DNA from: Bryoerythrophyllum caledonicum
Lineage: Eukaryota; Streptophyta; Bryopsida; Pottiales; Pottiaceae
Assembly: GCA_963971425.1 (NCBI GenBank)
Contig: OZ020515.1
Coordinates: 33,801,856 to 33,865,855 of the forward strand
DNA length: 64,000 nucleotides
Reading direction: 5' to 3'
The notes under the pieces were generated by a model, which did no database searches, was not told the DNA's origin, and saw nothing but the letters and a program-made list of their open reading frames with translations. The translations under genes were made by a program, and so were the position numbers. Shown piece by piece: positions 1,680-62,138 of this stretch (position 1 is its first letter; every line of letters starts with the position of its first letter).

Positions 1680-1737
1680 CAATACTCTTGGGTCCTACCC
1701 AATGCAAGCAATACCCTTGGGTCCTACCCAATGCAAG
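1680..1737. repeat. 29-bp tandem duplication
   Basis: Two adjacent 29-base units share the core TTGGGTCCTACCCAATGCAA and differ by one base near the start. The core contains a short dyad (TTGGGT / ACCCAA). It looks like a simple local duplication. Confidence 0.85.
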
Positions 1738-2006
1738 CTAAAGCTCCCCCATGGTATCCTAAATTTTTCAAAGGATTGATTAATAGTTCCCCCACACCTC
1801 TTCCAAGCCAAGGCACCCTATCCATGTGGTCCCATATACTAACAACCTAAATGATGTTATTAAATCTAACTCTGCTGTAGAGTATTGATCACAAAATGCA
1901 TGGTTCTCACCTACCATGATAGTACTCTCCAAAAAATCTCTAAAGACCAAGAGTCCCGAGGTGGGCTTTTGCAAATCTTGGGCATGTTTCCAATAATATC
2001 ATCCAT

Positions 2007-2053
2007 AAGGGTGTAGAAGTGGATGGTATTGGATGGTCCACTTCTACACCCTT
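2007..2053. repeat. Perfect 17-bp inverted repeat (hairpin)
   Basis: Two perfectly complementary 17-base arms (AAGGGTGTAGAAGTGGA and its reverse complement) are separated by a 13-base loop. It may be the remnant of a palindromic element. There is no U-run or neighbouring gene to make it a terminator. Confidence 0.8.
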
Positions 2054-3717: not shown

Positions 3718-3965
3718 GGCTCCCGCGACTGGGGCACGCCGCTCGGGATGGAACACACGAAAGCGCGGCGGGCCAAGGTCAATCATCAGGCTGGCGCAGA
3801 TAGGCCAGGGAGGAGCGTCTGTTCATGGGAAACCAGAGGAGCAGAATGGTTGGGGAGGAATCTTCAGAACTGGCGTAGAAGGCCGACTTTTCCATGGCGG
3901 CTCCCGTCCCATGATCCATCCCTCGCACTGCAGGCGCTGCTCGTGGTTTCCGTGCGCACTGCCCC
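3718..3965. other. GC-rich, CpG-rich island of unknown nature
   Basis: Base composition rises sharply here against AT-rich flanks, with many CpG dinucleotides. Frames are open on both strands (127 and 98 aa on +, 71 aa on -), as expected of GC-rich sequence, and none has a recognisable motif. It abuts the left end of the MITE at 3971. It could be a relict exon, a promoter island or a piece of another element. Confidence 0.35.
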
Positions 3966-3970
3966 AGTAA

Positions 3971-4367
3971 GGTTGGATGACCTATAACCACCAACTTAAG
4001 CTTGCTGACCTATTTATAGCGTTTGTATACGTGGTAAGACATTTTTTGGGAATTCAAAATAGGATTTCATGAATATTGCAATTGTCGTGACCATTTATTT
4101 CTTCATATTGAAATTGCTACAAATTTTCAAAGTGGATAGTAAGCCGTGACCCATTCCTCGACATACAAAACTCTCTATTTCTACACTAAGTTGTACCAAT
4201 AACCACTTCTGCATTGACAAAAAACCGGCAGCTTTGAACCAATCATGAACTGACACCCAATCATAAATGACTTCCTAAAATTTCGGAAATGGGGTGGGTC
4301 TGTGGTGGTTTTGGTACACTTTAGCATCTCCATTATGGGGTTCGTGGTGGTTATAGGTCATCCAACC
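3971..4367. mobile_element. MITE-like element with ~25-bp terminal inverted repeats
   Basis: The left end GGTTGGATGACCTATAACCA is matched by its reverse complement at the right end (GGTGGTTATAGGTCATCCAACC). The bases just outside are TAA on the left and TTA on the right. That could be an imperfect 3-bp target duplication or an extension of the inverted repeat. The interior has no coding capacity. A related but decayed end lies near 2170-2195. Confidence 0.65.
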
Positions 4368-4570
4368 TTAGAACGCTGTTGTCAAAGCTACACAATCGTC
4401 ATCAGCACTCATCCCTCCTCCAACCAATTTGATCCTTCTTTTCAGTTTCTTCCCAATAGTTATCAGCCACAAGAAGAATATTCATCTTTGAAGAAGAAAA
4501 AGAGAATGAAAGTTTGAGGTGTTTTCTTGAAGGTTAAAGTGGGTGATCCCCTGTATCATCCCTTACTTTA

Positions 4571-4776
4571 GAGCATCTCCACCCAGAGACAGAGAACCAC
4601 CAATTTGGAGTTTTGCGAGGACAAAAAGTTGCACCCGTCACCTCAAAATGGGGAAACTTTATAAAATTTGGAGCTTGCGGTGGAGCTCTTACAACGCCAA
4701 ACCCTAAACCACTCCCGGCGTGGAGTAGATTTTCCGACCTCGCGTGGAAAATTCCATGCCAGGAGTGGAGATGCTC
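4571..4776. mobile_element. Tourist-like MITE (PIF/Harbinger type) with TTA target duplication
   Basis: The element begins GAGCATCTCCACCC and ends in GTGGAGATGCTC, an imperfect terminal inverted repeat. It is flanked on both sides by TTA (4568-4570 and 4777-4779), the 3-bp duplication typical of PIF/Harbinger-derived MITEs. At 206 bp it has no coding capacity. The terminal motif resembles a MITE end common in plant genomes. Confidence 0.75.
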
Positions 4777-10719: not shown

Positions 10720-13370
10720 TATGTACCTTCATCTTTCAGGAAATATAGATCGGGATCAGCAGATTGATTGTAGCTTTCCGGTGTTGTTGTGTCCGTTTTC
10801 TATTTTCTACTCTAGGATTGATCTCTCATCTCTAACGTGAGTATGGCATTTAATATACTCAAAAACTTACTGTAGATTATATAGAATTTCATAGAACATC
10901 AAAATAAACTTAGAATCTTGAAGGAAACTTTTTGAGACTTGGAGACCAACTAAAAAGGTTTTGCCGATAGAAATGTTGCAGATTTTTTCATTGCTTCAAT
11001 CCTTGCCACTGACAAGGATGGAAGATATTCTGATCGTGAGATGCCTTCTACATTCTACTCAAAAGGAGGATTTGAAGGTGTAGCACATGATGCAGTAAGT
11101 GACAATGAGGATCATAGACTAAGAAGAGGAACTGCAGTTTCCTTTGGAGGCCAGCATGAATGAAGTGTCTGTTTGTTCCTCCACTAAGTCCATCCCCACT
11201 AAACAAAAAATTAGTGGTATAGAACTACTTCCTCCTTTCGAGGGTAGACACTATAAGATCGGGGACATAACAAACCAAGGCCGTTACGGTGGGGCCATGT
11301 ATTACATTTAGTGGCAAACGCGTATAATTATGTTGATGTTTGTAGTTTATAGGTTTTGGTATTGGTTTTATGGGGGGCCATGTGGGTCGGGTAATGGTTG
11401 GTTAATTTCCAATCTTTGCTTCTAGAGGAGGATAGACATGGCAGTTGGATGGCGATGGTAATTATGTTTTTGAGGGTGTCTTTGATACCGTACCTAATTG
11501 TCCCTCTCAACTCCTCTATGTCGAAAGAATTATTTTCCTTTGACACAATGATTCGGACACAATGGATACCACCTAAGTATGACATCGGTACCACCTATGC
11601 ATGATAGGGGTAGCACCTTGACATTCCATGGGTAATCACACGGGCAATCATATTTTCCAAAATTTTGGACAACTCTCCATTTAGAATTAATTATGTACGA
11701 AAGCGACCATGGCGTAGGGTAGAAGCAATTGGGATCTTGAATGTATCTTCAATTGCTTTCATAGAGGGGATATGGGTTGTGGCGCAAGCACCGACGATAA
11801 TCACTATTTGAAGGGCAACCTTCCAACCAAGTGCACTAAATTTCATTTACGTGTGATTGATATTTGTTTATCTTGTGTTCAATTGTGTTGGGCGGAAATC
11901 TATCATTGCAAAATGTAAGTTTGAAGAATTGGATGGTACTATTTGGGTTCCAAGTTTTTTTGGGGGAGTGTTGTATGTTAATCCGCAACCATGTAGTATA
12001 TGTGGTTTGAGTATGGCATTTTAGTGACATCATAGTGTGCCGCAAGGAAGATACAGACGAAACCTGTCTGTGAGTGTGCCTAGGCAATTGACTGCAAACT
12101 AGTCTCTAGGCTTAGACTTCAATTCTGATACAGACAATGCAATCTATCTAGAACATTGACGACCCTGATTTTAGTAAAAAACGCTATTCTGCGGTCACTT
12201 CCAAAAGATGTATCAAAGCAAAATGACCAAGGTGCCACAAAGTTGAAAGATGCTGCAAGAATTAATGATTTAAAAAAAAGAAGCGAAGTATCTTCAACTG
12301 GTTTCCTTGACTTACAGCTCTTGCAGGTTGCTTGATCAGGTTGGTATTTAAGCTTCACATTTTCATTAATAGCTTCAACATAAAACCCCTTTGATCTTTA
12401 TTTTTCTTGTAGGGTTTTCTTATCCTTCAATTTTTGTCAATGGTACAGATCTAGACATGAAGTGAACAACAGCAGCAACACAAGCAAGTTGGAAGAGTGA
12501 CAAAGTCATCCTCTTAAAGTGGTTGTAGTGTTTTGAATAATTATCAGCAACAAAAATGCCAAAGAGAAAAGAATAAACAATGACAACATCACAACACTAC
12601 ACCAAACACTGCATATACTGTGGACCAGATATTTCAAGATACCTACACGAATTCAATTACACTCAAATTTCAGTGGTCCACCTCAATTCTCAATACACAT
12701 CAAATCATGTTCCTCATAAAATAGTGTGGGATGTTTCAAAATTGTTGGCACAAAATTAATGTGGATTATGGAGAGTTGGCGGTGAGTGGCAATGAGGTGG
12801 GCGCAAGCGATGAGGAGGGCGCAAGCAATGAGGAGAGATATATTGGATGTTGAGTGGTGGTGTGGATGCAAAGAATGGTATGACATATGTTGAAATGAAT
12901 GTTGTTGTCAATAGTGTGGATGTAAATTGTTGTCAAAGTAGCCAAGAGGATAGCAAACAAGGTTAGCAAACCATAGAAATATACAAGGAAAATGACCAAT
13001 CATTTCAGGGGCCTTAACAAGGCGAAGGAGAAGGAAAAAGAGGAGTTGGATAAACATAAGAAAGTTCCAATCCTACTGGCCTCTTGGAAAACTCAAGCTC
13101 TAATATTGAAAAACATTTTCATGGTGTTAAAAAAACTCTTTGCACTTATTTTTGTGGGGAGTGAAGATAACTTGGTTTTGTTACACAGTACATGTGCAAT
13201 CCTCACCACGATTAGTACTTATTTATTTAGAATTCACTTGATAATATGGTTAGTCTCCATGATTAGGGCCGCTTTAGATTATGGTGGAGAAATGCACCGG
13301 CCGGTCGAGAAGTTTTGGCCAAGACATGGTTATTTGAGGCAACCGGTGTGAATTGAGCTTCTCTGGTGGT
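10720..13370. other. Intergenic DNA with no confident gene
   Basis: No recognisable domain is present. A short coding-like fragment at 10955-11163 is listed separately. Two related blocks at about 13,268-13,312 and 13,377-13,416 both read GCTTTA..TA..GGTGGA.AA.., a diverged ~110-bp duplication next to the truncated integrase end of the Ty3/gypsy element. Other frames (for example 11328-11594, 12119-12358, 12766-12999) lack motifs and overlap frames on the other strand. Confidence 0.5.
10955..11163 (+). pseudogene. Short coding-like fragment, unknown
   Basis: An open frame without a usable ATG encodes about 69 residues with balanced composition, including ADFFIASILATDKDG and MPSTFYSKGGFEG, ending at a TGA at 11161. 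The composition looks more protein-like than its neighbours. It could be an exon or a gene fragment carried by a repeat. I do not recognise the family. Confidence 0.25.
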
Positions 13371-28621: not shown

Positions 28622-28839
28622 TGGAAACTCAGAGCCCGACCGAGGCACCACCACCTGAAGGAGCTGAAGACGAACGATTCACAACCGGATCAGAACCCGC
28701 AGGGTTATCAATCCGACGTCCTTTGGGGGTCTGAGAGCGTCCTAGGGCGTCCTAGGACGAGGACGTCCTGACGTCACGTCGGACGCAGCGTCCGGGGGGG
28801 GTAAAATGCATTTACCGAAGGCCGTAGTAAGTTTTCTGG

Positions 28840-29300
28840 ACCGTCAGATTCGACGAAGTGCGACGCGGCGAGATCTCAGCCGTCGAAATGCGTCGAGTCG
28901 TCCGACCGGACCCGGCCGTCGGAGAGATCGGACAGCACCTCGGCCGTCCGCGTGATCGGACGGCCGATGAACAGATCGTACGGCCCCGATTTGATCGCGG
29001 GGGCGCACGACGGCCGTCCGATTAGGCCGACGGCTTTAGGGCCGACCGATCGGGCGGATGGCCGAAAGGGCGGACGGCCGTCCGATCCGCGGATGGCCGT
29101 GCGATCGGGCGGCCGACCGATCGGGCGGACGGCCGAAAGGGCGGATGGCCGAAAGGGCGGACGGCAGTCCGATCCGCGGACGGCCGCCCAATCGGACGGC
29201 CGTGCGACCGGTCCATCGGCCGTCCGATTGGAGGACTGCCGGCTGGCCGTCCGATCGGATGGCCGTGGTGGCGGTCGGCCTCATGGCCGTCCGCCACCCT
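28840..29300. repeat. Left subterminal repeats, CGGACGGCCG palindromes
   Basis: More than a dozen copies of the self-complementary motif CGGCCGTCCG / CGGACGGCCG, in both orientations, fill this very GC-rich block just inside the left end of the hAT-like element. The same motif clusters just inside the right end (37,556-37,720). Subterminal arrays of a short motif are where hAT transposases bind. Because the block is GC-rich and palindromic, long frames are open on both strands and I do not count them as genes. Confidence 0.85.
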
Positions 29301-29307
29301 ATAAAAG
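29299..29307 (+). promoter_or_regulatory. TATA box upstream of the kinase-like gene
   Basis: CTATAAAAGG lies at the inner border of the GC-rich subterminal block, followed within 25 bp by the pyrimidine-rich CCTCTCTCTCTCAC, a likely transcription start. It is about 490 bp upstream of the ATG at 29789. The promoter is thus built into the transposon end. Confidence 0.6.
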
Positions 29308-29469
29308 GCCGTCCGCCAACCTCTCTCTCTCACTTTTTCCTTCCCCTCTCGAAAATTGAAATATATTTTTGAGTGGATGCGGAGTGGCTTTGGCTGGCAT
29401 TTTTCCATCCATTGGCTCCTCATCTTTGGGAGGGAGAAAGTGATTCACATTTGGAGGGGAGTTTTTGCG

Positions 29470-29788: not shown

Positions 29789-31273
29789 ATGCCGAAGGAC
29801 AAGAAGAAGCAGAAGGTTGCGGACTTCGGAGTGAAGCTTCATCCAATCCACGACGTTCCATCTGAGGCTTGCAAGAATTTCCTCATAGAACTGACCGTCA
29901 GATTCTATGAGGAAAATTCTATTCGATCATTGGAGAGCAAGTACGTCAGATATAGAGATGAAGGCCCCGAGAAGTTCCGGACGGACATGCGGCAGCACAT
30001 GATGGACGCGCTTCAAGCCCCGATGTGGAATACGGAGACCCAAAAGCGCGGGTTTTTGAAGTTCTTGGATGCCAGAGTGCACGATTCACTCTGGAATGCC
30101 AAGAACTTGTTGACCAAGTTTGGGAGGTTCAATCGCGCGGCGGATGAAGTTTTCAACGACGTGCTGTTGAAGGCGGATTTGTTTGTGGCCCAGATGAAGC
30201 CATTCGCCAAGAATCGAAACCGGCGTGGCTCCGTGGGATGGTGGAATTCGATAGAGGGGCACCAAGAAGACCTGTTGCGTAAAGCCCATCTCATTGCCAT
30301 TCCGCCAACAGCCGCGGTTATACGAATGGACAATGCGAACAGGAGAGGTGGATACGCCACCATTCGCAAAGTCCGCATTGAGGGCGCTCCGGGCATTGAA
30401 CCATTCTAGGAATTTGCCGCCAAGTTGTCCAACCAATCGGAGACACGGCCGGATTTGGCAAAAGTTGAGCATCAGAATGAGTCGATGGCGGTGAGGATTC
30501 CACATCCGGGTGTCATCCGTTTCGTGGCCATTCATCCGGACAAGTACGAAGGCTATGCGTATTGGTGGAATGGCGGGACAGTTCGAGAGATGTTGAACCG
30601 GGATATCGAGTTTGGTGACGATGTCATCACACATTTGAACTATGGGAGATTGCCCAATGATGAGATTATTCGAGTTCAACAGTTGGTTTGTTTTCGCAAA
30701 AAACGGACCGAGCTTGCGTGGGCGTTGTTGCGCATCATGAACGAGGTCCACAAGAGCAACAATCTCCACAATGACTTGTCTCCGGACAATATCCTCCTCC
30801 ACTTCCCTCCACATGAATCGCGAGTGTATATTGGAGTATGCGATTGGGGCATGACCACGAAGGTTAACGAACCAATGCAGTCTCTTTATACGTTCACAAA
30901 GCGTGAAGACATGGCCGAGACTCTGCGAAGGCGATGGTGGGTCGATCCGCGGGTTGCGTACTTGCACAAACCAGATGCGGATGTGCAAATGATTCCGAAG
31001 TTATCAATGGCTTCGGAGGAGTTCGCTACGGCCCGAATAGCGCAACGAATCAACGGGCGGACAATGTCCATAGACTACGAGAATCTGCAACGGGAATCTC
31101 GGAGTTCCGTAGTATTCTCAAATCAAGAATTTGCGGATACATTTCATATGTACATGGAGAGAGTCTGCAACGAAAACCGAGAAAGCGCTGGAGGATTGTT
31201 TCATATCATTACACGCTTCAGCGACACATACAACTGGCCCATGCCTCATGAGCATTATCGGTCAACGTATTAG
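29789..31273 (+). pseudogene. Protein-kinase-like protein carried by the hAT-like element, one in-frame TAG
   Basis: The frame from ATG 29789 runs 206 codons to a single TAG at 30407-30409, then continues in the same frame to TAG at 31271-31273 (495 codons in all). Kinase landmarks are in order: a Gly-containing loop with a following Lys (RRGGYATIRKVRI, residues 185-197); HPGVIRF and YEGYAYWWNGGTVREML, resembling the beta4-beta5/hinge region; the catalytic loop HNDLSPDNI (His327, Asn328, Asp329); and DWG (352-354) in place of DFG. HND replaces the usual HRD, but the catalytic Asp, the Mg-binding Asn and the DWG Asp are present. The first ~160 residues are an unassigned helical domain. The TAG sits just after the Gly-loop/beta3 region, so truncation would remove the catalytic core. 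It may be a recent mutation, a read-through site or a base error. Confidence 0.75.
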
Positions 31274-36456: not shown

Positions 36457-37335
36457 TTAATCGGAATCTGAGTCAGTATCACGCCTTTCACTTGGCCCAG
36501 CGCCACTTGAGTACGGCCCGCTTGAATAAACATCATACAAGTTATTGTATTGCCTGTTCATGTAGCGAGATTCATCTTCGAGCCTGCGGATGTACTCGTT
36601 CTGGCTTTGTATTGTGGCTTCATGCATTTGTCTTTCAAACTCGGCATCATCGTTCTGACGAGGTGGAAACGTTGATGGAGATGTGTTGTCTCTTCCATCT
36701 AATCTCCGGCCATATCCATCGTAAGGATGGCCATAAACGTCGTAATAGACGTGTCCAGGGTTTGGAGTGTCGTGTTCTTCCTCTTTTCTGGGGGAATTAC
36801 GACCAGACTCGTACGTATCCCTTGGATGCGTTCGCGTATAGCGAAGAGGGGTGTTGGTCCCTGTACCACATTGGCCGCCATCCAAAGAACGGCCATATCC
36901 ATGGTAAGAACCGCCATATGGGTCGTAATAGACGGGTGCAGAGTGTGGGGTGGTATGTTCTTCCTCTTCTCCGAGGGAATTACGACGAGACTCGTACGTA
37001 TGCCTTGGATGCGTTGGCGTATAGCTCTGAGGGGTGTTGGTCCCTGTACCACATTGGCTGCCATCGTAGTAATGGCTGCCACTCCCCCCACCAAATGTTA
37101 CAGGCGTGGAACCCATATCATTGCCACGGTTGTAGTCGTTGTAGTTATGTCCCCCGTACTCTTCTGGAGGTGTCTGCTGTTGTTGGTGGGCATCGGGATC
37201 GTCCCCGGATCTTCGGTTTGACCAACGTGGCCAACAATCACTCGGTTGATTCCAGGTGGTTGGTATAAAATGGGCAGTTCGATCCATCAGGCTGACATTG
37301 CGGCCCGCCACGGTGCGCCAGTCCACATCCTTGTG
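36457..37335 (-). CDS. Unknown protein of the hAT-like element, C-terminal part, cut by an assembly gap
   Basis: The minus-strand frame is open from the N gap (37,335) to a stop at 36,457 (293 residues). After WRTVAGRNVSLMDRTAHF and a WNQPSDCWPRWSNRRS segment it becomes low complexity: Gln-rich, Gly/Asn/Tyr-rich, then two tandem 61-residue repeats each starting QCGTGTNTP and ending LDG. These are followed by a helical stretch (QMHEATIQSQNEYIRRLEDE) and an acidic end (RRDTDSDSD). It could be the C-terminal region of the element's transposase, whose conserved core would lie in or beyond the gap, but no hAT dimerisation motif is visible. The open frame despite the repeats suggests it was recently under selection. 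Confidence 0.5.
   Translation of the reverse strand, partial: HKDVDWRTVAGRNVSLMDRTAHFIPTTWNQPSDCWPRWSNRRSGDDPDAHQQQQTPPEEYGGHNYNDYNRGNDMGSTPVTFGGGSGSHYYDGSQCGTGTNTPQSYTPTHPRHTYESRRNSLGEEEEHTTPHSAPVYYDPYGGSYHGYGRSLDGGQCGTGTNTPLRYTRTHPRDTYESGRNSPRKEEEHDTPNPGHVYYDVYGHPYDGYGRRLDGRDNTSPSTFPPRQNDDAEFERQMHEATIQSQNEYIRRLEDESRYMNRQYNNLYDVYSSGPYSSGAGPSERRDTDSDSD
36690..37060. repeat. 183-bp tandem duplication within the minus-strand gene
   Basis: Two consecutive 183-bp units (marked by GGTGTTGGTCCCTGTACCAC near 36,849 and again near 37,032) encode the two 61-residue repeats. The length is a multiple of three and keeps the frame. Confidence 0.85.
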
Positions 37336-37535
37336 NNNNNNNNNNNNNNNNNNNNNNNNNNNNNNNNNNNNNNNNNNNNNNNNNNNNNNNNNNNNNNNNN
37401 NNNNNNNNNNNNNNNNNNNNNNNNNNNNNNNNNNNNNNNNNNNNNNNNNNNNNNNNNNNNNNNNNNNNNNNNNNNNNNNNNNNNNNNNNNNNNNNNNNNN
37501 NNNNNNNNNNNNNNNNNNNNNNNNNNNNNNNNNNN
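37336..37535. other. Assembly gap (200 N)
   Basis: Exactly 200 ambiguous bases, so probably a gap of unknown true size. It lies between the minus-strand gene and the right subterminal repeats, where a GC-rich palindromic array may have blocked assembly. Confidence 0.98.
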
Positions 37536-37555
37536 AATCTAATAAGGGACGAGGG

Positions 37556-37720
37556 AGCTGTAGTGAGAAGGCCGTCCGCCGGGCGGTCGGCCACGGCGGT
37601 CGGCCATGGCGGACGGCCACGCGGACGGCGGATGACGGACGCCGGTCGCCTGAAGCGGACGGCCGTGCCGTCCGCCCAAGCGGACGGAATGGACGGTCGA
37701 CCGGGACTGCGGACGGCTAT
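37556..37720. repeat. Right subterminal repeats of the hAT-like element
   Basis: Multiple GCGGACGGCC / GGCCGTCCGC motifs in both orientations mirror the block at 28,840-29,300. Between this block and the right end, GACGTCC motifs also mirror the left end (28,710-28,790). Confidence 0.85.
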
Positions 37721-37960
37721 TTACCCCCGGGTAAATTGACAAAACGGGTTATGTCACCGGACGTCCTGATAGGCCGGAGGACGTCCTCCGTCCTGACGTC
37801 CGGACGTCACGGACGTCGAGCGTCCTGACAACCCTGAGAACCGGGACTGTGGTAGGCCCCTAATATCATTGGCGACATTCCGGTGGACATTAATGAGCTC
37901 TACAGACATATCGTCTGGCGGACCAGGATCTAGGAAAGGGAAATTCGGGAACGGCACGCC

Positions 37961-40256: not shown

Positions 40257-41468
40257 ATGGGGCGCCTGCTCGTGTCCAACCGTCCGCATTTGTTGTTTGA
40301 TCTACACAAGGAGGTCAATGGTTTACGGGAAGTTGAACCAGCTGGACGATCATGACTTCTCTGACGACTTGAAAGTGACAAAGAAATCAAATACACTCGT
40401 TTGTGGGGACATCAACATTAGGTGTTCAAGTAGTACACTCTTGAGGTCTTTGCTATCAATAACAAATTTTATCCACAGCCTCATCCATCATGCCGGGAAC
40501 AAAGGTGTTTAGAAAGTTGCCGTTGATGAAGGAGACCTGCTCGGGGATGCAAGCCAAGGCGAGTGGACGCACGAGTTTGCAGCTTGGGGGAGGTGCGCAG
40601 AACCTCAAGCAGGCTGTTGACGTTGACTTATTAGGCTCATGGTCAAGGAGTGAATGTGCCTGCTCCTAGTGCGTTGATCAAGGAGCAAGGTGTCAAAGAT
40701 TGCAAGCAAATGCTCAAACTAGCATGATAGTTGTTGTGTGTATAAAGGCGACAACAAGTAGAATGAGTCCTAGTTCTGTCCATATTCATTATGAGCATGT
40801 GATGGATTTTGGGGGCTCCATAAGTGCATGTGGTGCTTGAAGTTGGTGGCCGTATGTCGTTAGTGAACGGCTCAAAAATCTCATCCTAGAGAATTTGGGG
40901 ATTATCTAGCACAAAGAGTTGTCTATGTTGACCTAAAATTGGTGTGCTTGAGGGGAGAGGGATACATCTTTTAGTAGCTTGTGGAAGCTTGAGAGTGCTC
41001 TATTTTGGTGGTGTTCAGGCGGTCGACCGACTACTAGAAGAAGCAGTGGTGGTGTCTTCAAGCCTCGGTTTGTTCTTGGGACAAGACGGTCTGTGAGTGA
41101 TGTTCGAGCACCGCGTGAAGTAATTAGAGTGAAGCGCGGCGGTGGCGATCCGGATGCGCAACATCCACATTGCAACGGGATGAGTGATTGAATTCACTTG
41201 TGGTGTCTTGTGGATTTTTTGGTGTTTATGGTGATATGGAAGCGCTGCCAAAAATTGTGTTAGAATTGCAAGGTGCGATTGTGTTAAGGTTGCCCAAGAA
41301 TTGTTAGTGTGGAGGACGCATGCTTGAATATAGGGTAGCTTTGTGTACATTTTAGCGCATGAATTGTACATTTTAGGTGATTTTGATCACTTAAAATCGT
41401 AGGGCATTAGTGATTTAAGCGTGAACTGAAACTCCGTTTCGTGTTTGTGCAGATCTGAGAGGGACAGG
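40257..41468. other. Region upstream of the ParB/methyltransferase-like gene
   Basis: Mostly without recognisable coding sequence. A frame at 40979-41188 (+) encodes a basic stretch (KPRFVLGTRRSVSDVRAPRE) that could be an upstream exon. The sequence immediately before the next gene (TTCGTGTTTGTGCAG at 41,438-41,452) looks like a splice acceptor, so a 5' exon probably lies here or farther left. Element boundaries in this stretch are unknown. Confidence 0.4.
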
Positions 41469-44400
41469 ATGGTGTCTCAGCTGCAGCACTTCTTCCAGCC
41501 AAAGCCTGTCGACATTGACAATGACGATGGAGACGACAACAACCACTTAGATTGCTTGGAGCTCAAAGATCCTTCCATGACACTAAAGTGGACGCTGTTG
41601 TGGGCCCCCTACACAGAGAATCTAGTGTTTGGTCAGACCTTCGCTGGTGATATCCGTGAACCCCAGCACACCGACTTCAAGACCAAAATTATTGATGTAG
41701 TCCACGAAGATAACGATATAGTGAAGTTGTCGTGTAACACCATATTCATTATTTTGGGAGATTTTCAACCTCCCAATTTATTGACAGTTTAGGTCGAGTC
41801 CACCTAAATTGTACCCACAGATTAGGTAATTCACCGAAACTGGACAAAACAACCAATCGCTGAAACATTCAAATGGCCATAACTTACTCAGATTTCGTTC
41901 AAATTGGGCATATGAGGTGTTTTTTGACATCTACAGGAAAATTAGATGTCAAAAAACACCTCATATGCCCAATTTGGACAAAATTTGAGTAAGTTATGGC
42001 CATTTGAAAATTTCAACGATTGGTTGTTTTGTCCAGTTTCAGTGATGTACTCAATCTGTGGGTACAGTTTAGGTCGACTCAACCTAAACTGTATTTTCCC
42101 AAAATCATGGAATTTTCCCATTATAACGAATATGGTGTTGTGTGAGACAACCACTGAGTCTGTCGTTCCTTATATGTTCACTATTGTAGTGAACAATACT
42201 TCGTCTCCCTTCTGTATTTTCGACTTAGTCAGTTCTCTTAGGGGGTCACAGTTTGATGACATAGTGGCTCAAGTCGACCACAAAATCTCCCAAAAGAAAT
42301 GGGAGACTAGTAGTGGTCAGCCGCTGAAAGCGAAGGCTGTAGCGAACAAACACTATAAGAAACCCGTGTTTTTTGTGATGTTCCAAAAAACGCAGAAAAT
42401 GTCAAAAAAACAGGGATGATGTCCATGAAAGCATCACCTAAAATTTGGATCAACCGAAACATGCAAAAACATGGCAAAAATTGCAGTCAACATGACAATG
42501 TTTACGTTAACGTCTTTGCCAACATATACGCGTGTCCTTGCTAACATCCCCATGTTTGGGAGCTAACATGCCCACGTGTCCCAACTAACATCTCCATGTT
42601 TTTTACAACGTCCTGTTAATTCTGATGTTTTTCTAGATGTCACTTTTCAAAATGTATATGTTTTACGATTTTAGGTGACATCACAAAAAACACGGGTTTC
42701 TTATAGTGAAATTCCGCATCATTCTTTCCAGAATGAGTACTTTTGCCGCTCTTGAGAAGGCGAAATTAATCGTATCTAGGCGCCCAATAGAACTTTCGGT
42801 AGTTTCTGGTGCCGTAACAGGTAGCCAGAATATAAGTCAAGCATCGGTACCGGTAAGAACTCCAGGTGCAAGAGCAAGTCGAAGCACCCTGCGCAACATG
42901 TTGTCAGCGTCTCCCGTCAAGAAGCGCTCAGCTGCCAAGAAGCCGGAGACTTCTTCCAGGAAGAAGACGAAACTCGTTTCAGAGGAAGAGTTGGCCAATT
43001 TGATGGCCTCTGCACTGTTGGAACTCCCTTCGGCGCTCGGGTTCGGAGAGGTAACAGACTACACCAACGTCCAACAGATATATCAGAAATTCTGGACGGG
43101 GTGTCAAAGCGATTTTTTCCAAGGAGACAGAGAGATGAAGATCGAGCTTGATGTGATGAGGCTGCATAATGCACCGCCGGAGTGGACAATCCGTGCATTC
43201 GAACCTCGGGGTATGGAGGAGTTGAAGCATTACTACCTCGAAATGTCGGACAAGACGCAGAAGCAGACTCTCTGCGTCATGCCCAAGCTCGATCATATGC
43301 CAACAAAGGTTGAGGAGCTGAGCGACTGCGACTTCTATATCATCAACGGCCAGCACAACGTTGCTGCATCAAAGTCGATGATAAACGATACCGTACCGGA
43401 GGTTATGAGAAGGCACTTCCGAACATGGCAGTGTTACATTGTCTGGACGGAGGACCCTGAGAAGCAGAGGAGGATTTCCACGTATTATAATCACGTAAAT
43501 CACTTGGTCCAATTCAAGCCGACGTGGCCAACAAATATCCTTGGCTCTCGCGCGTTGTGGATCCAAGCTGGAAGACCGATGCCGAAGCACTCCGCCGCAG
43601 GCATTCACGGGTCCCATAGATCAGGTCGGAGAACGGCAATGGAGATTGCCAATGACAAGAAGTTTGAGGTAATTAATCTTAACCAAGGTCATGCACTTTA
43701 GCTCGACTCGAGGTAACTTCTGTGCTTGTCCTTCTTAGTATAGTTCTGTATACAGATTCGAGCACTTGGAGTGTACACTCTCCGGTTGTAAGTTAGCTCG
43801 ACTCAGGTTAACCTGCATTTTTGGGTCCTGCTGGTTTGGTTTTTTTCCCTCTGTGGTTGTACGCTAAATCAACACTGCCAATGTTCTGCACAGCCATTTC
43901 TAAATGCGATTCGTGAGCGCTTCGCAATGATTGACGTCGCCAAAAGCCAGGCAGCGCTCAAGAAAGCCGGAAAGGCGAAGGAGCTCTCGATTACGAACGA
44001 GGTGAAGATTATCACCTCGTCCGATGAGACCTTCAAGCTCTGGTCGGATGTCATCTCTTCGGCGGCACAAGTCGACCTCATCAACGTGGATTCAACAACG
44101 TCGCCCTTGTCCAAGTTTAAGGACGCCAAGTCCTGGGTGCCTGAGAAAGATGGGGTATTGACGCGAGAGTTCTTTAAGTTTTTCGGCAATATGACCGAGG
44201 CTGATCACGCAACGCTGTGTAAGCATATTCTTAATCGATCAGGGCCATCGCAAAAACTACCTTATCCTAAGGTGGTTGTAAAGCAGCCGCAATCAGTGCT
44301 GGAAGATTGCTACAGCGCCCGGGACTGGGTCGATCGAAGGAAGAGGAAGGAGGTCGCTCGGATGGAGCTTCAGTTGATCAGGCCGGAGCTTGCCTTCTTC

Positions 44401-47351
44401 AACAGCACTAGGGCGTACAGTCGTTCAAACTGGCGGACGTTCAAGAAGAACTACAACGTCAGCAAGGCCTCCAAGCGTGCCCTCTTGGATTGGGGTCCAC
44501 CGGATTCGTACTACGCCAACTCGAGGCAGACGCAGTTTCGCAACTGCAAATGTGAAGATCTCTCTCTGTATGCGAAGGAGTTGTTCAGAGTCTTTCCCGA
44601 TGTGCGGGCACGGTTCGTTGCACCTATGGGGGCTTGCACTTTCGTCCATACAAGGCGGCAACCAACTCGCTCGGTGGATGGCCCTCGGATTCGTGGCGTA
44701 ACTTGGGCTGCAACATGAAGCTCGGCATCATCGACTTCCGTAATATCCCTGGGTTCGTAGGGAAGGCGACGTCGTCATTGGAGAAGCCCTTCTTCGACGA
44801 GTCCATGACAATGTTCACATCGAAAGGGCAACCTTCTCTCACCGGTCCTCCAGCGTGGCTCTTCATTTGCGGCGACGAGCAGTCACACCTTCAAGTGACA
44901 ACGTTTGCTGAGGGCCCGTCGTTGTGCCATGCGTACGACGTCCTGCAGTCGAAGTATCTTCCCTCCGACAACGAGCGCTTGGGGGGATTCGCGCCGAAGA
45001 CCAACAATGCTCTCGATGCGGTTCGCCTCCTCTTTCTCTTCAAGAAAGAGCTTACGCAGATTCGGGCCGTGAAGAAGATCTACGCAGCTCCGGAGCATGT
45101 GTTGCACACCAAGCTACGCAAGTACAACAAGCTGGCGTACTCCATGAACATGAACGAGCTGAGAATGGAGTTCTTCATCAAGGTTCTGGAGCTGTTCTGC
45201 ATGAAAGGGGATTCTACTGTCCAGCTGTTTTGCGGGACGAAATTACTGACTGCGAGTGTGGTGAGTATCCTTGCAGTTTAGCTCGACTCGAGCTAAACTG
45301 TTGATCCCCTCTCTGACTGTGAATGTATTGTTTCAGAGAGGTCGTCTCTCATGCTTTTGTAGCGTGGCACTTTAGCTCGAGTCGAGCTAAAGTGCCGGCT
45401 TATACTTATATGGTTTTCTAGCAGTCGTCAATCGCGTCATATTCTTCCAAGTTTTAATGGCTGCGTTTTCATATCAGTGTTCTTTTGTGCTCACTTTAGC
45501 TCAAATTGATCTAAAGTGTAACTTATTTAATCCATTGGTGTGCAGATGTTGGATCTGGAGGCATTCTGCATATCCCACGACACCGATGAGCAGGACCTGG
45601 ACAACGCCCAGGATGTAGCGTTGACGTTGGATCGGGCCGATTTCGTTATTGGTTCATATCACATCAGCGCGGAGATCTTCCCCGAGCTTGGAGAGGCTGT
45701 TGCCAAGGGGAAGGGGAAAGTGATTATCGATCTCGTCGATGAGGAGGAGGAGGAGGATGTGGTCCCGAGCCCCATTGGTGTGTGCCCGAGCACCAGTACG
45801 GTCACACCTGATGCCGATTCCCATGATGACTTCGATACCAACACTCCAGCGGAGCTTCATAGTGGCTCTCAGTCTGAAGCGGGAGAGACAATGGGTACCT
45901 CGCGGCAGCGGCTTGATTTCGTGGAGTTGGAATCGCTTGATATCTCCGAGAGGCCTCATTCAGCTCCTACCTTGGGTGGGTCATCCGCTCGCCCCGCAGC
46001 CAAGAAGAGGAAAGTTGCCAGCGCGACCGGCCGCTCACCGTTGGCAATGGCAAGCAGTGCTCAGGATGACATCAGGTTTATCGCCCTTGAGAAGAAGCTC
46101 GAAGAGGAGGCCTCCCGGATGAGGCTGATGGAGCAGCGGCTGGTGGAGCGTGACGAGGAGCTCAGGGATATGCAGCGGAGGCGTGACGAGGAGATAACGG
46201 GGGACCAGGACCAGAGGCATAACGACATGATGCTCATGATGCAGAGATTCATGATGGCTACTATGCCTCCTCTCGCCACGACACAAACCGCAGTGAATTC
46301 TACGATCCCTCAGCCTCCAATCTCAGGTGACAATGAGACTAGGAGTCTGCCTCGCGGTTCGCTTATGCCATCTCCGGCGGGTTCTTCACCCGTCTCCATA
46401 GGGGCTCAATCGCTGCCTGATCCCCCGTCCCCGCCGACCCGCCCCTCTTCCTCCCCGAAGTCGCCCGCTCGCACTATAAGAAACCCGTGTTTTTTGTGAT
46501 GTCACCTAAAATCGTAAAACATATACATTTTGAAAAGTGACATCTAGAAAAACATCAGAATTAACAGGACGTTGTAAAAAACATGGAGATGTTAGTTGGG
46601 ACACGTGGGCATGTTAGCTCCCAAACATGGGGATGTTAGCAAGGACACGCGTATATGTTGGCAAAGACGTTAACGTAAACATTGTCATGTTGACTGCAAT
46701 TTTTGCCATGTTTTTGCATGTTTCGGTTGATCCAAATTTTAGGTGATGCTTTCATGGACATCATCCCTGTTTTTTTGACATTTTCTGCGTTTTTTGGAAC
46801 ATCACAAAAAACACGGGTTTCTTATAGTGTCGGGACGATTCTGTCGTTGATGTCCCCAGCTCATCGTCAGGTTAGTGTAACGTAGTTGCATATGTATAGA
46901 GCCAGAACATTTTGTAAATGTCCAATTTTGTACTCCAGTATATTTGGTTGATATTACAGTGCTCAGTGATCACTTTAGCTCGACTCGAGCTAAACTGCTT
47001 GACATCTGACGACTCTGACATTGTATCAGTGTCCAATGTGCGCATGAGCTGATGGGTTGAAGTTGTTGAATTTTTTCAGATCTTAGTTTTGGTGATGACG
47101 CGATTGCTCAACCAGTCGTAGATGAGGTCGTCCAAACTGCAGTCCCAGTCGTAGAGGATGTCGTCCAATCTTCGGCCGTGCTCGTAGACGAGATCAATCG
47201 TGATTCTTTTGTCGAGGAGCCCGCTCTTCTTGTCCCAGAACCGTGCCCCCAAATGGTTCTAGAGCACTCGAGGGCCCTTGACACCGTGCAAGTTTCATTG
47301 GAATCGATGGGGGTCCGAAATGAATTGCTCCAAGACGATGAAGTTCTCGAG
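41469..47351 (+). CDS. ParB-like/DNA-methyltransferase-like protein gene, multi-exon, disrupted by three insertions and one frameshift
   Basis: Exons by hand: up to 43668 (first ATG 41469, but an acceptor at 41452 suggests an earlier exon), 43894-45260, 45546-46870, 47080-47351. All junctions are GT/AG with matching phase. The first exon holds a fold-back element (41736-42139) and MITE A (42351-42708); the third holds MITE B. Taking each out with one target copy leaves the frame open. A 1-nt shift in the G run 44628-44632 remains. The product (about 1,340 residues) shows INGQHNVAASKSM (43,340-43,380; ParB/sulfiredoxin-like), then after a long middle region LELFCMKGDSTVQLFCGTKL (about 45,187-45,246), matching motif I and its lead-in in beta-class N4/N6 DNA methyltransferases. 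I see no DPPY-type motif IV. The C-terminal part is acidic, then coiled coil. The introns argue against bacterial contamination. Confidence 0.6.
41784..41812. repeat. TTTAGSTCGA palindrome, copy 1 (left arm of fold-back element)
   Basis: ACAGTTTAGGTCGA followed by an imperfect complement ending CCTAAATTGT. It is one of ten related palindromes between 41.8 and 49.1 kb. Confidence 0.8.
42064..42092. repeat. TTTAGSTCGA palindrome, copy 2 (right arm of fold-back element)
   Basis: ACAGTTTAGGTCGA, centre, then CAACCTAAACTGT. It is nearly symmetrical, and the partner of copy 1 in the opposite arm. Confidence 0.8.
42351..42708. mobile_element. CACTA (En/Spm-type) MITE A, 358 bp
   Basis: It starts CACTATAAGAAACCCGTGTT and ends with the reverse complement of the same sequence. 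AAA flanks both sides (42348-42350, 42709-42711), the 3-bp duplication of CACTA transposons. It is inserted in the first coding exon shown, and removal with one AAA rejoins ..VANK to FRIILSR.. in frame. It is the exact reverse complement of MITE B as far as I can compare by eye, with equal length. Confidence 0.92.
43694..43815. repeat. Palindrome copies 3 and 4 in the intron 43669-43893
   Basis: Copy 3 (43694-43717) reads CACTTTAGCTCGACTCGAGG, then diverges. Copy 4 (about 43789-43815) reads GTTAGCTCGACTCAGGTTAAC. Both are imperfect versions of the motif. Confidence 0.7.
45274..45518. repeat. Palindrome copies 5, 6 and 7 in the intron 45261-45545
   Basis: Copy 5 (45274-45300) is a perfect 13-base dyad (CAGTTTAGCTCGA and its complement) around one base. 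Copy 6 (45366-45396) is a perfect 15-base dyad (GGCACTTTAGCTCGA) around one base. Copy 7 (45492-45518) is a degenerate version starting CACTTTAGCTCAA. Three hairpins thus sit in one 285-bp intron. Confidence 0.9.
46472..46829. mobile_element. CACTA (En/Spm-type) MITE B, 358 bp
   Basis: It has the same termini as MITE A, in opposite orientation, flanked by TCG on both sides (46469-46471, 46830-46832). It is inserted in the third exon, where it introduces a premature stop within a few codons. Removal with one TCG gives SPARDDSVVDVPSSSS in frame to the next donor at 46871. Identity to MITE A implies that both arrived recently or that one was copied from the other. Confidence 0.92.
46971..46997. 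repeat. Palindrome copy 8 in the intron 46871-47079
   Basis: CACTTTAGCTCGA, one base, then TCGAGCTAAACTG: near-perfect, with one mismatch in the arms. Confidence 0.85.
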
Positions 47352-47494
47352 GTGCTCTTCTAACACTATCCACACTCTGCGCTTCTCCATATTGCTTCCC
47401 CCCCGTTTGCTCTCTTCGTTCTACATTATGTTGACTTGTCGTTGTTAATGAATCTTTAGTAATATTGTTCGTTGTCCTGGCATTTCCAAACCAG

Positions 47495-48316
47495 GTCTGC
47501 GAGGCATCAATAAGTGGTGCCAGTAATTTAGAAGAAATACCTAGAGTCTATTCAGATTCCGAGGGCAGATGGTTGAATGTTGTGCTGGACCTAAATGGGA
47601 TTCTATGCACTTGTAAGCCATCATGGCAGGCCAGGAGATCCAGGGACTCTATCCTGTCCATTCACTCAGCCTCGCTGCCGGCCGAAGTAGGCCCTAAGCT
47701 TGTTCGGGTGCGCCCTGGTTGTGCTGAATTCCTTACGAAGTTGTCTAAGATTGCCACCATCACGATCTGGAGTTCAATGATGGAATCTACAACACGTGAG
47801 ATATGTCAATATCTTTTTCAGCATAGTTCTGCATATCCTCTCAGGATCTTTGGTCAGGAGAGTTGCAAAAGAGTTCCCGAGCGTAGAGTCGGTAACAGAA
47901 CAATCTACATGAAGGAATTTGGCACTCAGAGGGACATCTTCTTGAAGACGTTATCGAACCATCTCTTTGATAGGTTGGGCCGTGAGTATACTCCGGCAAA
48001 TACGCTTGTCATTGACGATAGCCCGATTAAGCATGTCCTCAATTTGCCGGAGAACGCCCTTCTTCTTCCGTCCTGGTCGCACAACCATGATGGCACGAGA
48101 CATGATTCTGTACTGCTGGAGGAATTGCTACCATATCTCTCTGACCTTCATCAATTTTTGGGTGGCCTAGCGCAGTACCGTGCTGAACATCCCTCGGGTC
48201 GGGAGATGTTCTATAATGATCAGAAGACGTGTGGTCAGTCTGCGAGTATTTGTAACGCAATTCAAGCCTATCAGAATCTCCGTTCCTTATGTGGTTGGAA
48301 ACGCTTAGATCCTTAA
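47495..48316 (+). CDS. FCP1/NIF-type HAD phosphatase-like domain
   Basis: A splice acceptor (CATTTCCAAACCAG) precedes an open stretch of 273 residues. The HAD landmarks are VVLDLNGILCTC (motif I; usual DxDxT/V), TITIWSSM (motif II region), FGTQRDIFLKTL with a nearby Lys, and NTLVIDDSPIKHVLNLPENA (motif III, paired Asp). FCP1/NIF-like proteins dephosphorylate Ser/Thr substrates such as the RNA polymerase II tail. Here the second motif-I Asp is Asn (DLNG), a variant seen in a subgroup of plant FCP1-like proteins, so activity is uncertain. The donor at 47352 (CTCGAG|GTGCTC) and this acceptor are both phase 0, so the exon may be the end of the upstream ParB/methyltransferase-like gene. No ATG starts it independently. 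Confidence 0.7.
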   Translation, partial: VCEASISGASNLEEIPRVYSDSEGRWLNVVLDLNGILCTCKPSWQARRSRDSILSIHSASLPAEVGPKLVRVRPGCAEFLTKLSKIATITIWSSMMESTTREICQYLFQHSSAYPLRIFGQESCKRVPERRVGNRTIYMKEFGTQRDIFLKTLSNHLFDRLGREYTPANTLVIDDSPIKHVLNLPENALLLPSWSHNHDGTRHDSVLLEELLPYLSDLHQFLGGLAQYRAEHPSGREMFYNDQKTCGQSASICNAIQAYQNLRSLCGWKRLDP

Positions 48317-48317
48317 T

Positions 48318-48346
48318 ACACTTTAGGTCGAATAGAGCTAAATTGT
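48318..48346. repeat. Palindrome copy 9, just after the FCP1-like stop codon
   Basis: ACACTTTAGGTCGA, then an imperfect complement ending GAGCTAAATTGT. It lies 2 bp after the TAA at 48314-48316. Confidence 0.75.
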
Positions 48347-48556
48347 TTCGTTTGACTGCAGCTCCATTTTGTAAATTTTGTTGGGCCGTGTTTTGAATAT
48401 ATTTTTTGATAATACAAATGGTGATGTTTCTCCACTGAATTTATTGTGCGGATTGGATACCTACTGCTGGTGAAATGTCGTCTTTTTTTTAATGATTGGA
48501 ATTTTTATCTATTGTTCTGAGGTATGTGAGTGTCACTTTTATTGAAATTTCTACAG

Positions 48557-49412
48557 GGCTCTGATTGTCGGGCGTCCGTGGATTCCTTGTTGGGCCCACA
48601 TGAGTTCGCCCTTTCCCTTCGGAGTAAAGGGCTTTTGTTGCACTCTGCTGCAACCGCGCAGTCAACCATGGATTATTCGACCATGGCACTGGACGACGGA
48701 GTTGTTGAAAGCCCTATTGCGCAGGAGCCAATTCATGAAAGGAACAATTCACCTTCGCCGCAGTGGCCTCGTTTAGTTCCGGGGTCTCCACGCCTAAACC
48801 TGGATAATTGTATTCCGGCAAAGCGTATTCTCTATGACGGTTTAAGGGATGCCACTCACCACCGCTCGCTCACGGTGCGTGTTATGCTGACCTCCAAGTT
48901 ATTGCAGTATTGAGTCGTTCTTGCCTAGAGAGTCTTGGTTTGTTGTTGAGGTACCTTGCACTCTTGTAGTTTTGCTTCATTTGAGCTTGTTTTTGTTCAT
49001 TGGATATTAAATGTGCTCTGATAATTTTCCCTTCTGCATTTTAGCTCCATTTGAGCTAAAGTGCACTAGGATGGATCTTGATGATACAGTTTTTTTGTGT
49101 TGTCGTGTAGGTGTACTCGACCTAAAGTGTATTTGTTTGGATTGTTTGTGGCGCCTATTGTGTAGGAACCATCTGGTAAATGTCTTCGCCCCCGTATTCT
49201 CTCAAGAAATGCTGCTGGAATCAAATGCTCTCCTTCTGCTCCCACCCGCCGTCACTCGCTGCCCAAATCAAACACGGACGAGGTGCGAAGGCGGGGTTTG
49301 CAGCGTCTTCTTGAGAGTCCATTAATGCAAGAGAATGGCGCAACATGGACTCGGCAACGTCAGAGGGCTTTTCTGAAGACGCGTATAGAGGCTTATGGAG
49401 GGACTCCCTAGA
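48557..49412 (+). CDS. Two coding-like exons of unknown product downstream of the FCP1-like exon
   Basis: The first exon runs from about 48,557 (after TTTCTACAG) to 48,873 at CTCACG|GTGCGT, containing DCRASVDSLLGPHEFAL and PQWPRLVPGSPRLNLDN. The second starts at 49,165 after TTGTGTAG and reads EPSGKCLRPRILSRNAAG, later RRRGLQRLLESPLMQENGA and RQRQRAFLKTRIEAYGGTP, ending TAG near 49,412. Both junctions are phase 0 and fit each other. The sequence is basic and Ser/Pro-rich with no recognised domain. It could be the 3' part of the same transcription unit through an alternative splice of the FCP1-like exon, or a separate small gene. Confidence 0.45.
49036..49064. repeat. Palindrome copy 10 in the intron 48874-49164
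   Basis: GCATTTTAGCTC, a short centre, then GAGCTAAAGTGC. A half-site (ACTCGACCTAAAGTG) follows at about 49,114-49,129. Confidence 0.75.
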
Positions 49413-49671
49413 CTGTTTGATTAGTTATAGGGCGATTGTGTTTTGCGTCGAGGAAAATGAGTGTTGTGTGTGACTTTTTTTCATGGAGTTTTGAATAAAG
49501 CTTGGATTAATAGTATATGCTTCCTTTATCGTTACCACTTTTTTGGACAATCAGCTATTTTGGTCCATCCATGGTAAAAAATACAGTATTTTTGATACAT
49601 TGTCTTTATGCTTTGCACCTACAAATGTCTATATTTATTGATACTTCAACAATCATATTTCTTCATAGTCA
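49413..49671. other. Short non-coding stretch between the exons and the element end
   Basis: AT-rich, with no frame of note. It may hold the polyadenylation site of the upstream unit (GAATAAAGCTTGG at about 49,492). The right boundary is the AACACCATATTC-type end. Confidence 0.45.
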
Positions 49672-49703
49672 TGGAAATTTCCCAATATAACGAATATGGT
49701 GTT
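49672..49703. repeat. Unpaired right end of an AACACCATATTC-type element
   Basis: TCATGGAAATTTCCCAATAT followed by AACGAATATGGTGTT matches the right end of the fold-back element at 42,105-42,139 with few changes. It abuts RT coding sequence of the + strand Ty3/gypsy element (HQIGLRDEDKEKT). The matching left end and the upstream half of that RT are not found in the window, so the element that ends here may be large. Confidence 0.65.
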
Positions 49704-50258
49704 CACCAGATTGGTCTGAGAGATGAAGATAAAGAAAAGACCGTGTTTTGGGGCATTGATAAAGATAGGAAGGACCGGTTGTTCCAATGGAAGTTTCTGC
49801 CATTTGGATTGAAGAATGCACCAACCGAATTCCAAAGGATTATGGACCGAGTATTCTCGGACTTGGACTTTGTGAGATGCTATATTGATGTTATTATTGT
49901 CTTTAGCAAGAATCAAAGACAACATAAACTACACTTGATAGAAGTGTTTGCTAGATTAAGGCTCGACGGTTTGAAGTTGCACCTTGGTAGGTGCAAATTC
50001 TACTTCGATCGTATTGAATATTTAGGCCACATGATATATCCTAGTGGATTGGAGGTGGTAGCTAGCAAAGTGAAAGTGGTAATGTCTATTCTTAGACCAC
50101 GGGATGTTAGTAGGCTACAGGCATTCTTGGGGTTGTGCAATTACTATACAAAGTTTGTGAAAACTTTTAGTGCTATTGCGAAGCCATTGACCATGTTGAC
50201 AAGGAGTGATCAACCTTGGATGTGGGGAGATAGCAAGAGGCGGCCTTCCAAGAGTTGA
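49704..50258 (+). pseudogene. Ty3/gypsy reverse transcriptase, catalytic motif mutated
   Basis: The palm and thumb regions are readable: FQWKFLPFGLKNAPTEFQRI, then CYIDVIIVFSKN, where YIDD is expected, so one catalytic Asp has become Val. HLGRCKFYFDRIEYLGHMI, LRPRDVSRLQAFLGLCNYY and TKFVKTFSAIAKPLTMLT follow. The N-terminal fingers are missing, cut at 49,703. A frameshift near 50,245 ends the frame. Confidence 0.9.
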
Positions 50259-50670: not shown

Positions 50671-50699
50671 CACTATAAGAAACCCGTGTTTTTTGTAAC

Positions 50700-60873: not shown

Positions 60874-62138
60874 CCAATATCATGGAAACACAACATCTAA
60901 CATCCACACATGAAAATAATAGGACCTCCATGCGAAAAACAAACGCATCTGGAGGCTACTCTCACCCATAAGGTAAATCATATGTACTGCCTCCGTTGTC
61001 ACTGACGTTATAAACTGTCATCTGTGATGTCAAAATGACGTCAAGATTGATGGGAGGTTGTCCTCTCGAACGGTTAGAAGTCGCAAACTATACCAACTTT
61101 GGCAATTTTGAGGAAGTACACTTGTCAAATAAATGATTCAAGGATGTTATGCGTACGAGGGGCTCTTAAAGGCTACCAGAGAAAAATTCAATAGCCTCCA
61201 CCTCCCTTGTGTTCGCTTCACCCGCCACGTCGATGCCATCACATCAAGGAAAGACGTCAATAACTCCTTTGTGAGCATAAAAAAAACATGGGAGAAGGAG
61301 GTACTAACGTGTAAAATTGCAAACTCTTGAGCTCGCCCTTGTTGCTGCAGTAGCCTCTTCGCGGTGGCGAACACTAAACTTGGCTATGGCTAGGATTTCC
61401 TGGCCATGGCTGAGGTCAGCTATGGCTAGGATTAGCTGGCTCCCCTTGCCATCGTTCTTCTTCCCTTTGAGCTCTCCCCTTGCTGTCTTGATCTGCCGTA
61501 GATCACCTTCCTTGCTCCCAGCTAGCTCTGTCGTCACCGCTCCATGGCTCCTGCCATAGCTGCTGCCATAGCTGCCGTTGCTTTGCTCCACCACCTTCAA
61601 GTTGCCTCTTTCTACTCCTTGTTCTCATAATCTCTCTCTTCTTAGCATTGTAGTGAGCTTTGTCGCTCCCCACCTCCCACTTCTATCACCTAAGTTCAGT
61701 TTGCTCTCACCCACACTTCCAAAAGTAAAGTGTAGATGATGTGGAGGTTGCTTTTGTGTAAGTCGCCTTTCGGCTCTTCCTTCCTTGCAACATATTTCAT
61801 CCACTACGGATGAAAGCTGCCCATTTCCTCATTTTTTTGCTTTTGGGCAGCGGGCTGCAGTCATTCTACAGTGAAATTAAATGTAACTGTGGCTGACGTG
61901 GACCTCCCGTGTTTTCTATGACGTTATAGTCTGACGTGGTCACGTTTCTTTTGACGTCACCAAAAACGTGCATGTCTACGGTGACATCAACGCGTTTTGT
62001 TTTTAACAGGAACACGTTTGATGCAACGTCAAATTAAATTCGAGGTAGTGTAGCAATTTTTTGACTAATGCGTGACGTCACAGAAAACACAACACGTAAT
62101 AGCCTTGACAACACCAAAAACATGGTTTTCTTATAGTG
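60874..62138. other. Right arm of the outer CACTA element
   Basis: A frame at 61133-61330 (+) and one at 61304-61600 (-) are open but carry no recognised motif; the second covers a tract of CTATGGCTAGGATT-type repeats. A short TTTCATCCACTACGGATGAA block at 61,797 belongs to the GGATGAAA repeat family. TGACGTCA-type motifs near the end mirror the left arm. Confidence 0.5.

Follow-up and report, generated by a model that had tools for sequence, protein, structure and literature searches.

A ParB/methyltransferase-like accessory gene and family-specific palindromes in a giant DNA transposon of Bryoerythrophyllum caledonicum

Related systems

VirB is a relative of ParB. It offsets silencing in bacteria (PMC10653881), and ParB-like domains joined to DNA methyltransferase (MTase) domains occur in accessory proteins of giant transposons, as in the 21.5-kb element Sola1-1_Ec32 of Ectocarpus, where the ParB-MTase gene stands opposite the transposase gene, and in elements of red and green algae too (PMC12477816). 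VANC proteins, in turn, bind noncoding regions of VANDAL transposons that form tandem repeats (PMC10398659). The gene considered here lies in a stretch of 64,000 nucleotides (the window) from Bryoerythrophyllum caledonicum, contig OZ020515.1, where an original prediction, made from the sequence alone, had described an intron-containing gene joining ParB-like, DNA-MTase-like and possibly FCP1-type domains. It belongs to a giant DNA transposon of the cut-and-paste kind with terminal inverted repeats (TIRs), of which it is the second (right-hand, accessory) gene, and the transposon carries dozens of copies of a long palindrome that differs between transposon families.

The ParB-plus-MTase class of transposon accessory genes is already known, and the present gene is a variant of it with an FCP1-like domain. 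Like the algal elements, the transposon is giant (about 20 kb) and sets a gene with putative ParB-like and N4/N6 MTase-like domains opposite its presumed transposase gene (PMC12477816); unlike them, it lacks DPPY at the presumed motif-IV position, adds an FCP1-like domain after the MTase-like part, has a DUF7869 protein as its presumed transposase, lives in a host taken to be a streptophyte and comes with a documented palindrome system. The original prediction knew of no described protein with this order of domains. That statement fails for the ParB-MTase combination, which algae possess, and holds for the FCP1 addition as far as a limited survey of open-access ParB literature reaches, which found no FCP1 fusion, no streptophyte case and no palindrome system.

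With VANDAL/VANC of Arabidopsis the transposon shares an accessory protein encoded by a DNA transposon and rapidly diverging noncoding repeats (PMC10398659), whereas its repeats are long palindromes, and the proteins are likened by role, not by kinship. With ParB-parS and VirB it shares a ParB-box-like INGQH(N/S)xxAA block and element-borne palindromic sites, but it gives no significant match to a ParB profile, its odd palindromes are 21-33 bp long and number dozens per element, and its host is a eukaryote. The last domain resembles the SCP1/FCP1 C-terminal-domain (CTD) phosphatases (PF03031) in a domain match over the cut-off and in an IDDSP block, and differs from them in having DLNG in place of DxDx(T/V) and in lying within a transposon gene.

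The transposon and its two genes

The window holds a truncated copy of the element, with these parts:

41432..49703, + strand: family 1 element, 5'-truncated right-hand part, from blastn against 10 other genomic copies; the right TIR ends at 49703
41469..43668, + strand: exon 1, ParB-like, with INGQHNVAASKSM at 43342-43380 and two miniature inverted-repeat transposable elements (MITEs) inside; ends by eye
43894..45260, + strand: exon 2, MTase-like, with IIDFRN at the motif-IV position and the motif-I-like GDSTVQLFCGTK; ends by eye
45548..46870, + strand: exon 3, end of the MTase-like core and an acidic, coiled-coil-like linker (its nature judged by eye), with a MITE inside
47081..47351, + strand: exon 4, linker, without a family match; ends by eye
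47495..48316, + strand: exon 5, FCP1/SCP-like HAD domain (LDLNGILC...IDDSP), Pfam NIF PF03031

The GT-AG junctions, read by eye, are consistent with an ATG at 41469, exon ends at 43668, 43894, 45260, 47351 and 47495, and a stop at 48316. The predicted positions are right for the open frames, for the INGQHNVAASKSM and GDSTVQLFCGTKL blocks and for the DLNG/FCP1 exon.

Genome-wide searches covered the 437-Mb assembly, with matches scored among the best first-look candidates. LEAFY-family domains gave 7 matches there (best E 1.3e-27) and were found in 0 of 14 control genomes, from which the host is taken to be a streptophyte. The exon-1 frame gave at least 119 scored matches, itself included, as the best of 1738 such candidates, the others being 84-95% identical, and over half of the matches listed lie in a 502-aa frame while some carry internal stops; this is the copy-number check that the original prediction had proposed, and it rules out a single-copy host gene. 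Ten copies were fetched. Together with the window they share a common right end (11 copies), and the left end was reached in two, C11 and C9, whose full elements measure 19,812 and 19,811 bp in that order, defining a DNA transposon of about 19.8 kb. Its left end reads AACACCGTATTCGTTATATTGGGA, its right end is the near reverse complement, and flanks of TTGG/TTGG and CTAA/CTAA are 4-bp target-site duplications (TSDs). Long aligned pieces are 97-99.6% identical to C11 in eight fetched copies and 94-97% in the window, with C3 at 84.6% over its longest piece; conversely, long pieces of the window are 92-97% identical by blastn to nine of the copies and less so to C3. With its TIRs, its TSDs and its high copy number, the element comes close to one of the suggested alternatives, in which the gene would serve a large transposon not characterised before.

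Transposon superfamilies differ in TSD length, which is 4 bp in Sola, 8 bp in KDZ/hAT and 3 bp in CACTA. The TSDs found here (TTGG, CTAA, the TTAA of a second family and the GTGT of a MITE) agree in length with those of Sola and differ from those of KDZ/hAT and CACTA. A viral origin was also considered and rejected: the exon-1 frame has no confirmed relative in viral contigs, phages gave chance matches (4 records, best E 3), and the TIR/TSD anatomy, which fits a transposon, disfavours it.

The left gene lies on the minus strand and the right gene on the opposite one, so that the pair faces outward. In C9 the left gene is a 1004-aa open frame matching DUF7869 (E 2.7e-42), and its protein is the presumed transposase because of its place in the element and its QMDN...GHTHDDID blocks, which resemble a DDE-type catalytic core. 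A PDB sequence search with this protein gave no match up to E 10, and neither the name DUF7869 nor the string GHTHEDID was found in the open-access papers searched. The protein has 46 scored matches (best of 5271 candidates). Among the matches listed, 32 of these 46 copies have an outward-facing right gene, seen as an exon-1 match, 6.4-10.8 kb away; in six the right gene is more distant but correctly oriented, one has it in the wrong orientation, and seven have none within 60 kb. DUF7869 itself is very abundant in the genome (best 150 of 3611 candidates, all at 173 bits or more; P0001: 145), many copies lie in open frames of about 1066-1092 aa, and matches were found in none of 14 control genomes.

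Exon 1 is a single 502-aa frame in all ten other fetched copies, and exon 2 is open throughout in five of them (C9, C7a, C7b, C10b and C3) and broken in the other five. The ratio of nonsynonymous to synonymous substitution rates (dN/dS) is 0.12-0.23 for exon 1 (5 copies, 10 pairs) and 0.12-0.19 for exon 2 (4 copies, 6 pairs), and these low values indicate that both family 1 exons are under purifying selection. In the window, the 5' part of the transposon is missing, exon 2 is split over two frames, and exons 1 and 3 are interrupted by MITEs: this copy of the gene is dead, a decayed member of a high-copy transposon. The predicted intron-containing gene is real, in an order that recurs in the second family, and is at the same time a high-copy transposon gene whose window copy is broken.

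A second family and further relatives

A second element, adjoining copy C7, has the same gene order. Its DUF7869 protein is 67% identical to that of family 1 over 641 aa, and its right-hand gene has diverged further (38% identity in exon 1, 42% in exon 2, 45% in the FCP1 exon). It ends in AACACCATATTCATTATATTGGGAGATT and its complement, with TTAA on both sides, and spans 23,010 bp by coordinates. The family 2 exon-2 frame has at least 89 matches (79 of 1706 candidates scored); among those listed, 17, the query included, cover the full query at 99-100% identity, which indicates that this family moved recently, and nine are only 50-56% identical, which points to additional families. Five of the latter were fetched, and each of them still aligns with exon 2 of family 1, with 40-43% identity. 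In one, L033, a DUF7869 fragment abuts the exon-2 relative on the other strand (L033:1631-3300), at a tighter spacing than in families 1 and 2. The contig C1 (65 Mb) bears many of those listed exon-2 copies that contain several stops, and might therefore be an old chromosome rich in repeats.

The exon order is beyond chance: a family whose exons are only 38-45% identical shows it again, and purifying selection acts on exons 1 and 2. The predicted single protein of ParB-like, MTase-like and FCP1-like parts is to this extent supported by its conservation in the second family, and the five exons are inferred to encode one protein with a ParB-like region, a beta-class MTase fold without DPPY, a coiled coil and an FCP1-like domain.

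Domains of the right-hand protein

The FCP1/SCP-like HAD domain is a firm assignment from sequence comparison: exon 5 matches Pfam NIF (PF03031) at E 8.5e-19, with 68.2 and 68.6 bits against a cut-off of 21.8, and SCP1 structures in the PDB at E 0.004, so that the FCP1-type domain, which had been put forward as a possibility, is borne out. The active-site motif of CTD phosphatases is DxDx(T/V), and in both families the corresponding position reads DLNG.

The ParB-like block is reached by eight of the 12 exon-1 alignment rows and reads IINGQH[NS] in seven and IINSQH in one; L036, which is not in that alignment, has IINGKHS. The block looks like the second ParB box. When hhalign compares the exon-1 alignment with E. 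coli YbdM and three phage proteins, all four ParB-like, it is this box that comes into register. The predicted ParB-like domain is kept here as a motif call, because the alignment score falls inside the control range.

For exon 2, the hhalign comparison with YhdJ and five phage proteins, all six of them adenine-type MTases, gave one local match, at motif I, just past the HPTQKP region. Its score of 28.0 was exceeded by none of 60 controls (best 25.0); with the spliced start of exon 3 added, the score was 25.5 (P 0.019), with two of 200 controls higher, and the HH probability ranged over 2.5-5.5% between runs. The predicted MTase homology, its matches always falling at the right place, is weakly supported; no profile library searched shows ParB or MTase identity for these exons. 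All nine rows that extend to the motif-I position retain an F-x-G-[ST]-K loop there. At the motif-IV position, which is assigned by place, 10 of 16 rows have letters, reading DFR in nine and DFW in one, and [DNS]PP[YFW] in none. The original prediction had likewise found no DPPY and had thought of a catalytically dead MTase, which is close to this evidence: because DPPY is never found there, the enzyme, if the fold is right, looks dead for N4/N6 methylation.

Several domain library matches below threshold were taken as chance and rejected (HTH_Tnp_Tc3_2, 0.01; Perilipin_2, 0.0017, under its own cut-off; a histone doublet, 0.039; SIR4, 0.76).

Palindromes of each family

The noncoding parts of the element are marked by a long palindrome. 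As TTTAGSTCGASTCGASCTAAA it occurs nine times in the window (at most 3 mismatches), always within 41788-49126, and in none of 100 shuffles. The sites outside the MITEs, on no particular strand, are:

43697..43717: palindrome site, intron 1
45277..45297: palindrome site, exact, intron 2
45371..45391: palindrome site, exact, intron 2
46974..46994: palindrome site, exact, intron 3
48322..48342: palindrome site, just past the last exon
49040..49060: palindrome site, right subterminal region
49106..49126: palindrome site, right subterminal region

In the full-length elements the family 1 palindrome, TTTAGCTCGASTCGAGCTAAA, is present in 37 copies in C11 and 38 in C9, and it is absent from about 10 kb of flanks of each (at most 4 mismatches throughout). 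By our bounds, the coding exons of the C11 element are the left gene (1014-3924) plus the five exons of the right gene; they fill 39% of its length and overlap none of its 37 palindromes. One array, with a step of about 47 bp, lies immediately upstream of the left gene (element 4026-4556) and another, with a step of about 52 bp, upstream of the right gene (element 11418-11732); single palindromes stand in introns, behind the last exon and toward the element ends. Across the genome the exact 21-bp site occurs 3562 times, and its reversed pattern, used as a control, 0 times.

The second family has a palindrome of its own. In its stretch L032, TGCATATTCAGCTCGACTCGAGCTGAATATGCA or near variants occur 12 times in 10 kb, with the exact core in ten and different arms, as an array upstream of exon 1 (4212-4703; steps of 104, 104, 104, 52 and 127) and elsewhere in introns. 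Among the five further stretches, four (L034-L037) have palindromes outside the coding part of exon 2 in which the core is identical or almost so and the arms differ; the scan of the five also gave a few unrelated palindromes within coding frames. Sites of a protein that each family itself encodes would be expected to have a common core and arms peculiar to the family, and to keep out of exons, as is seen here. The family-specific palindromes are a new, directly testable observation.

Other features of the window

Three MITEs, with TSDs read by eye and on no particular strand, interrupt the window copy:

41736..42139: MITE in exon 1, ends resembling the TIRs of the giant element, TSD GTGT, palindrome sites at 41788 and 42068
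42351..42708: CACTA-type MITE in exon 1, TSD AAA
46472..46829: CACTA-type MITE in exon 3, TSD TCG

The MITE at 41736-42139, with palindrome sites in its inverted arms, is probably a non-autonomous derivative of the giant element. The CACTA-type family ends in CACTATAAGAAACCCGTGTT; besides the two full copies within the gene, more of its ends lie at 50671-50696 and 62113-62138 (3 mismatches). A reverse transcriptase fragment (PF00078, E 1.6e-18) at 49596-50258 abuts the right end of the element. Farther off there are low-complexity frames such as DGRKGGRPSDPR at 28805-29359 and 36457-37828, the latter including a 200-base N run (37336-37535), and an open frame at 30410-31273 has, by eye, a protein-kinase-like block, NNLHNDLSPDNILLHF.

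Possible roles of the palindromes

The reading preferred here, to which we give an even chance, is that the accessory protein binds the palindromes of its family and serves as a sequence-specific anti-silencing or autoregulatory factor. The right-hand protein would bind the palindromes as a multimer and coat its family's promoters and introns; this coating would keep the element transcribed or unsilenced by the host, in the manner of the anti-silencing VANC proteins of VANDAL transposons or of VirB in bacteria, or would set its expression. The dead MTase might act as a reader of DNA or of a cofactor, and the FCP1-like domain might contact the transcription machinery. Several observations weigh against this proposal. 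No entry of Pfam, PHROGs, NCBIfam or the PDB sequences matches exons 1-2 over the cut-off; the ParB comparison scores 14.1, where 100 shuffled controls reach up to 23.5; the MTase match has P values of 0.0069 and 0.016 and HH probabilities of 5.5% and 2.9%; and the FCP1-like domain may also be inactive, since DLNG replaces DxDx(T/V). L033 has no such palindrome within its 3.3 kb, 14 of the 46 left-gene copies have no right-gene match in the expected orientation inside 20 kb (among the matches listed), and the binder of the palindromes could instead be the DUF7869 protein or a host factor.

In the En/Spm system, TNPA stands beside TNPD, and on this model the palindromes might be binding sites of the DUF7869 transposase and transposition enhancers, the right-hand protein being an auxiliary transposition factor and not an anti-silencing one. 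Such a role is possible, if rather unlikely: a number of sites are closer to the ends (element 573, 669, 18434, 19151 and 19217) and in MITE arms, and the gene pair is kept together in most of the left-gene copies listed (32/46), but the sites are most densely arrayed upstream of the two genes, at about 4 and 8 kb from whichever end is nearer, and others are in introns. That the palindromes work as RNA or cruciform hairpins, in splicing or transcript stability, and not as protein sites, seems improbable to us. Deviations from the consensus are symmetric at position 11 in 24 of 37 cases (13.4 expected) and at position 15 in 23 of 37 (10.4 expected), which speaks for it, yet at positions 1-10 only seven of 42 deviant cases are symmetric, and the palindromes are also arrayed upstream of genes and in subterminal DNA. 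That the right-hand protein has kept a methylating activity, on DNA or a related substrate, and uses it at the palindromes to mark its own element seems very improbable to us; the motif-I loop kept in 9/9 rows would suit this, as would the proposal that the algal ParB-MTase class modifies its own transposon (PMC12477816), whereas DFR (9) or DFW (1) stands where [DNS]PP[YFW] would be needed (0/10).

If the accessory protein does bind the palindromes, a more elaborate device can be imagined, although we think it unlikely: the transposon lineage would have rebuilt ParB-parS-like loading and spreading as a self-targeting chromatin device, in which each family addresses only itself. The ParB-like protein, with its dead MTase and a CTD-phosphatase domain that looks inactive, would load at the dozens of family-specific palindromes, spread over the element and keep it both transcribed and unsilenced, and protein and palindrome arms would co-evolve.

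Significance

The putative pair, which is open to test, consists of a ParB/MTase-like protein encoded by the transposon and a long palindrome with family-specific arms, of which this one genome contains thousands of copies. Such a pair would reduce an open proposal, that algal ParB-MTase accessory proteins bind their own transposon, to a single binding experiment, and it could reveal an anti-silencing system of the plant lineage that is distinct from VANC.

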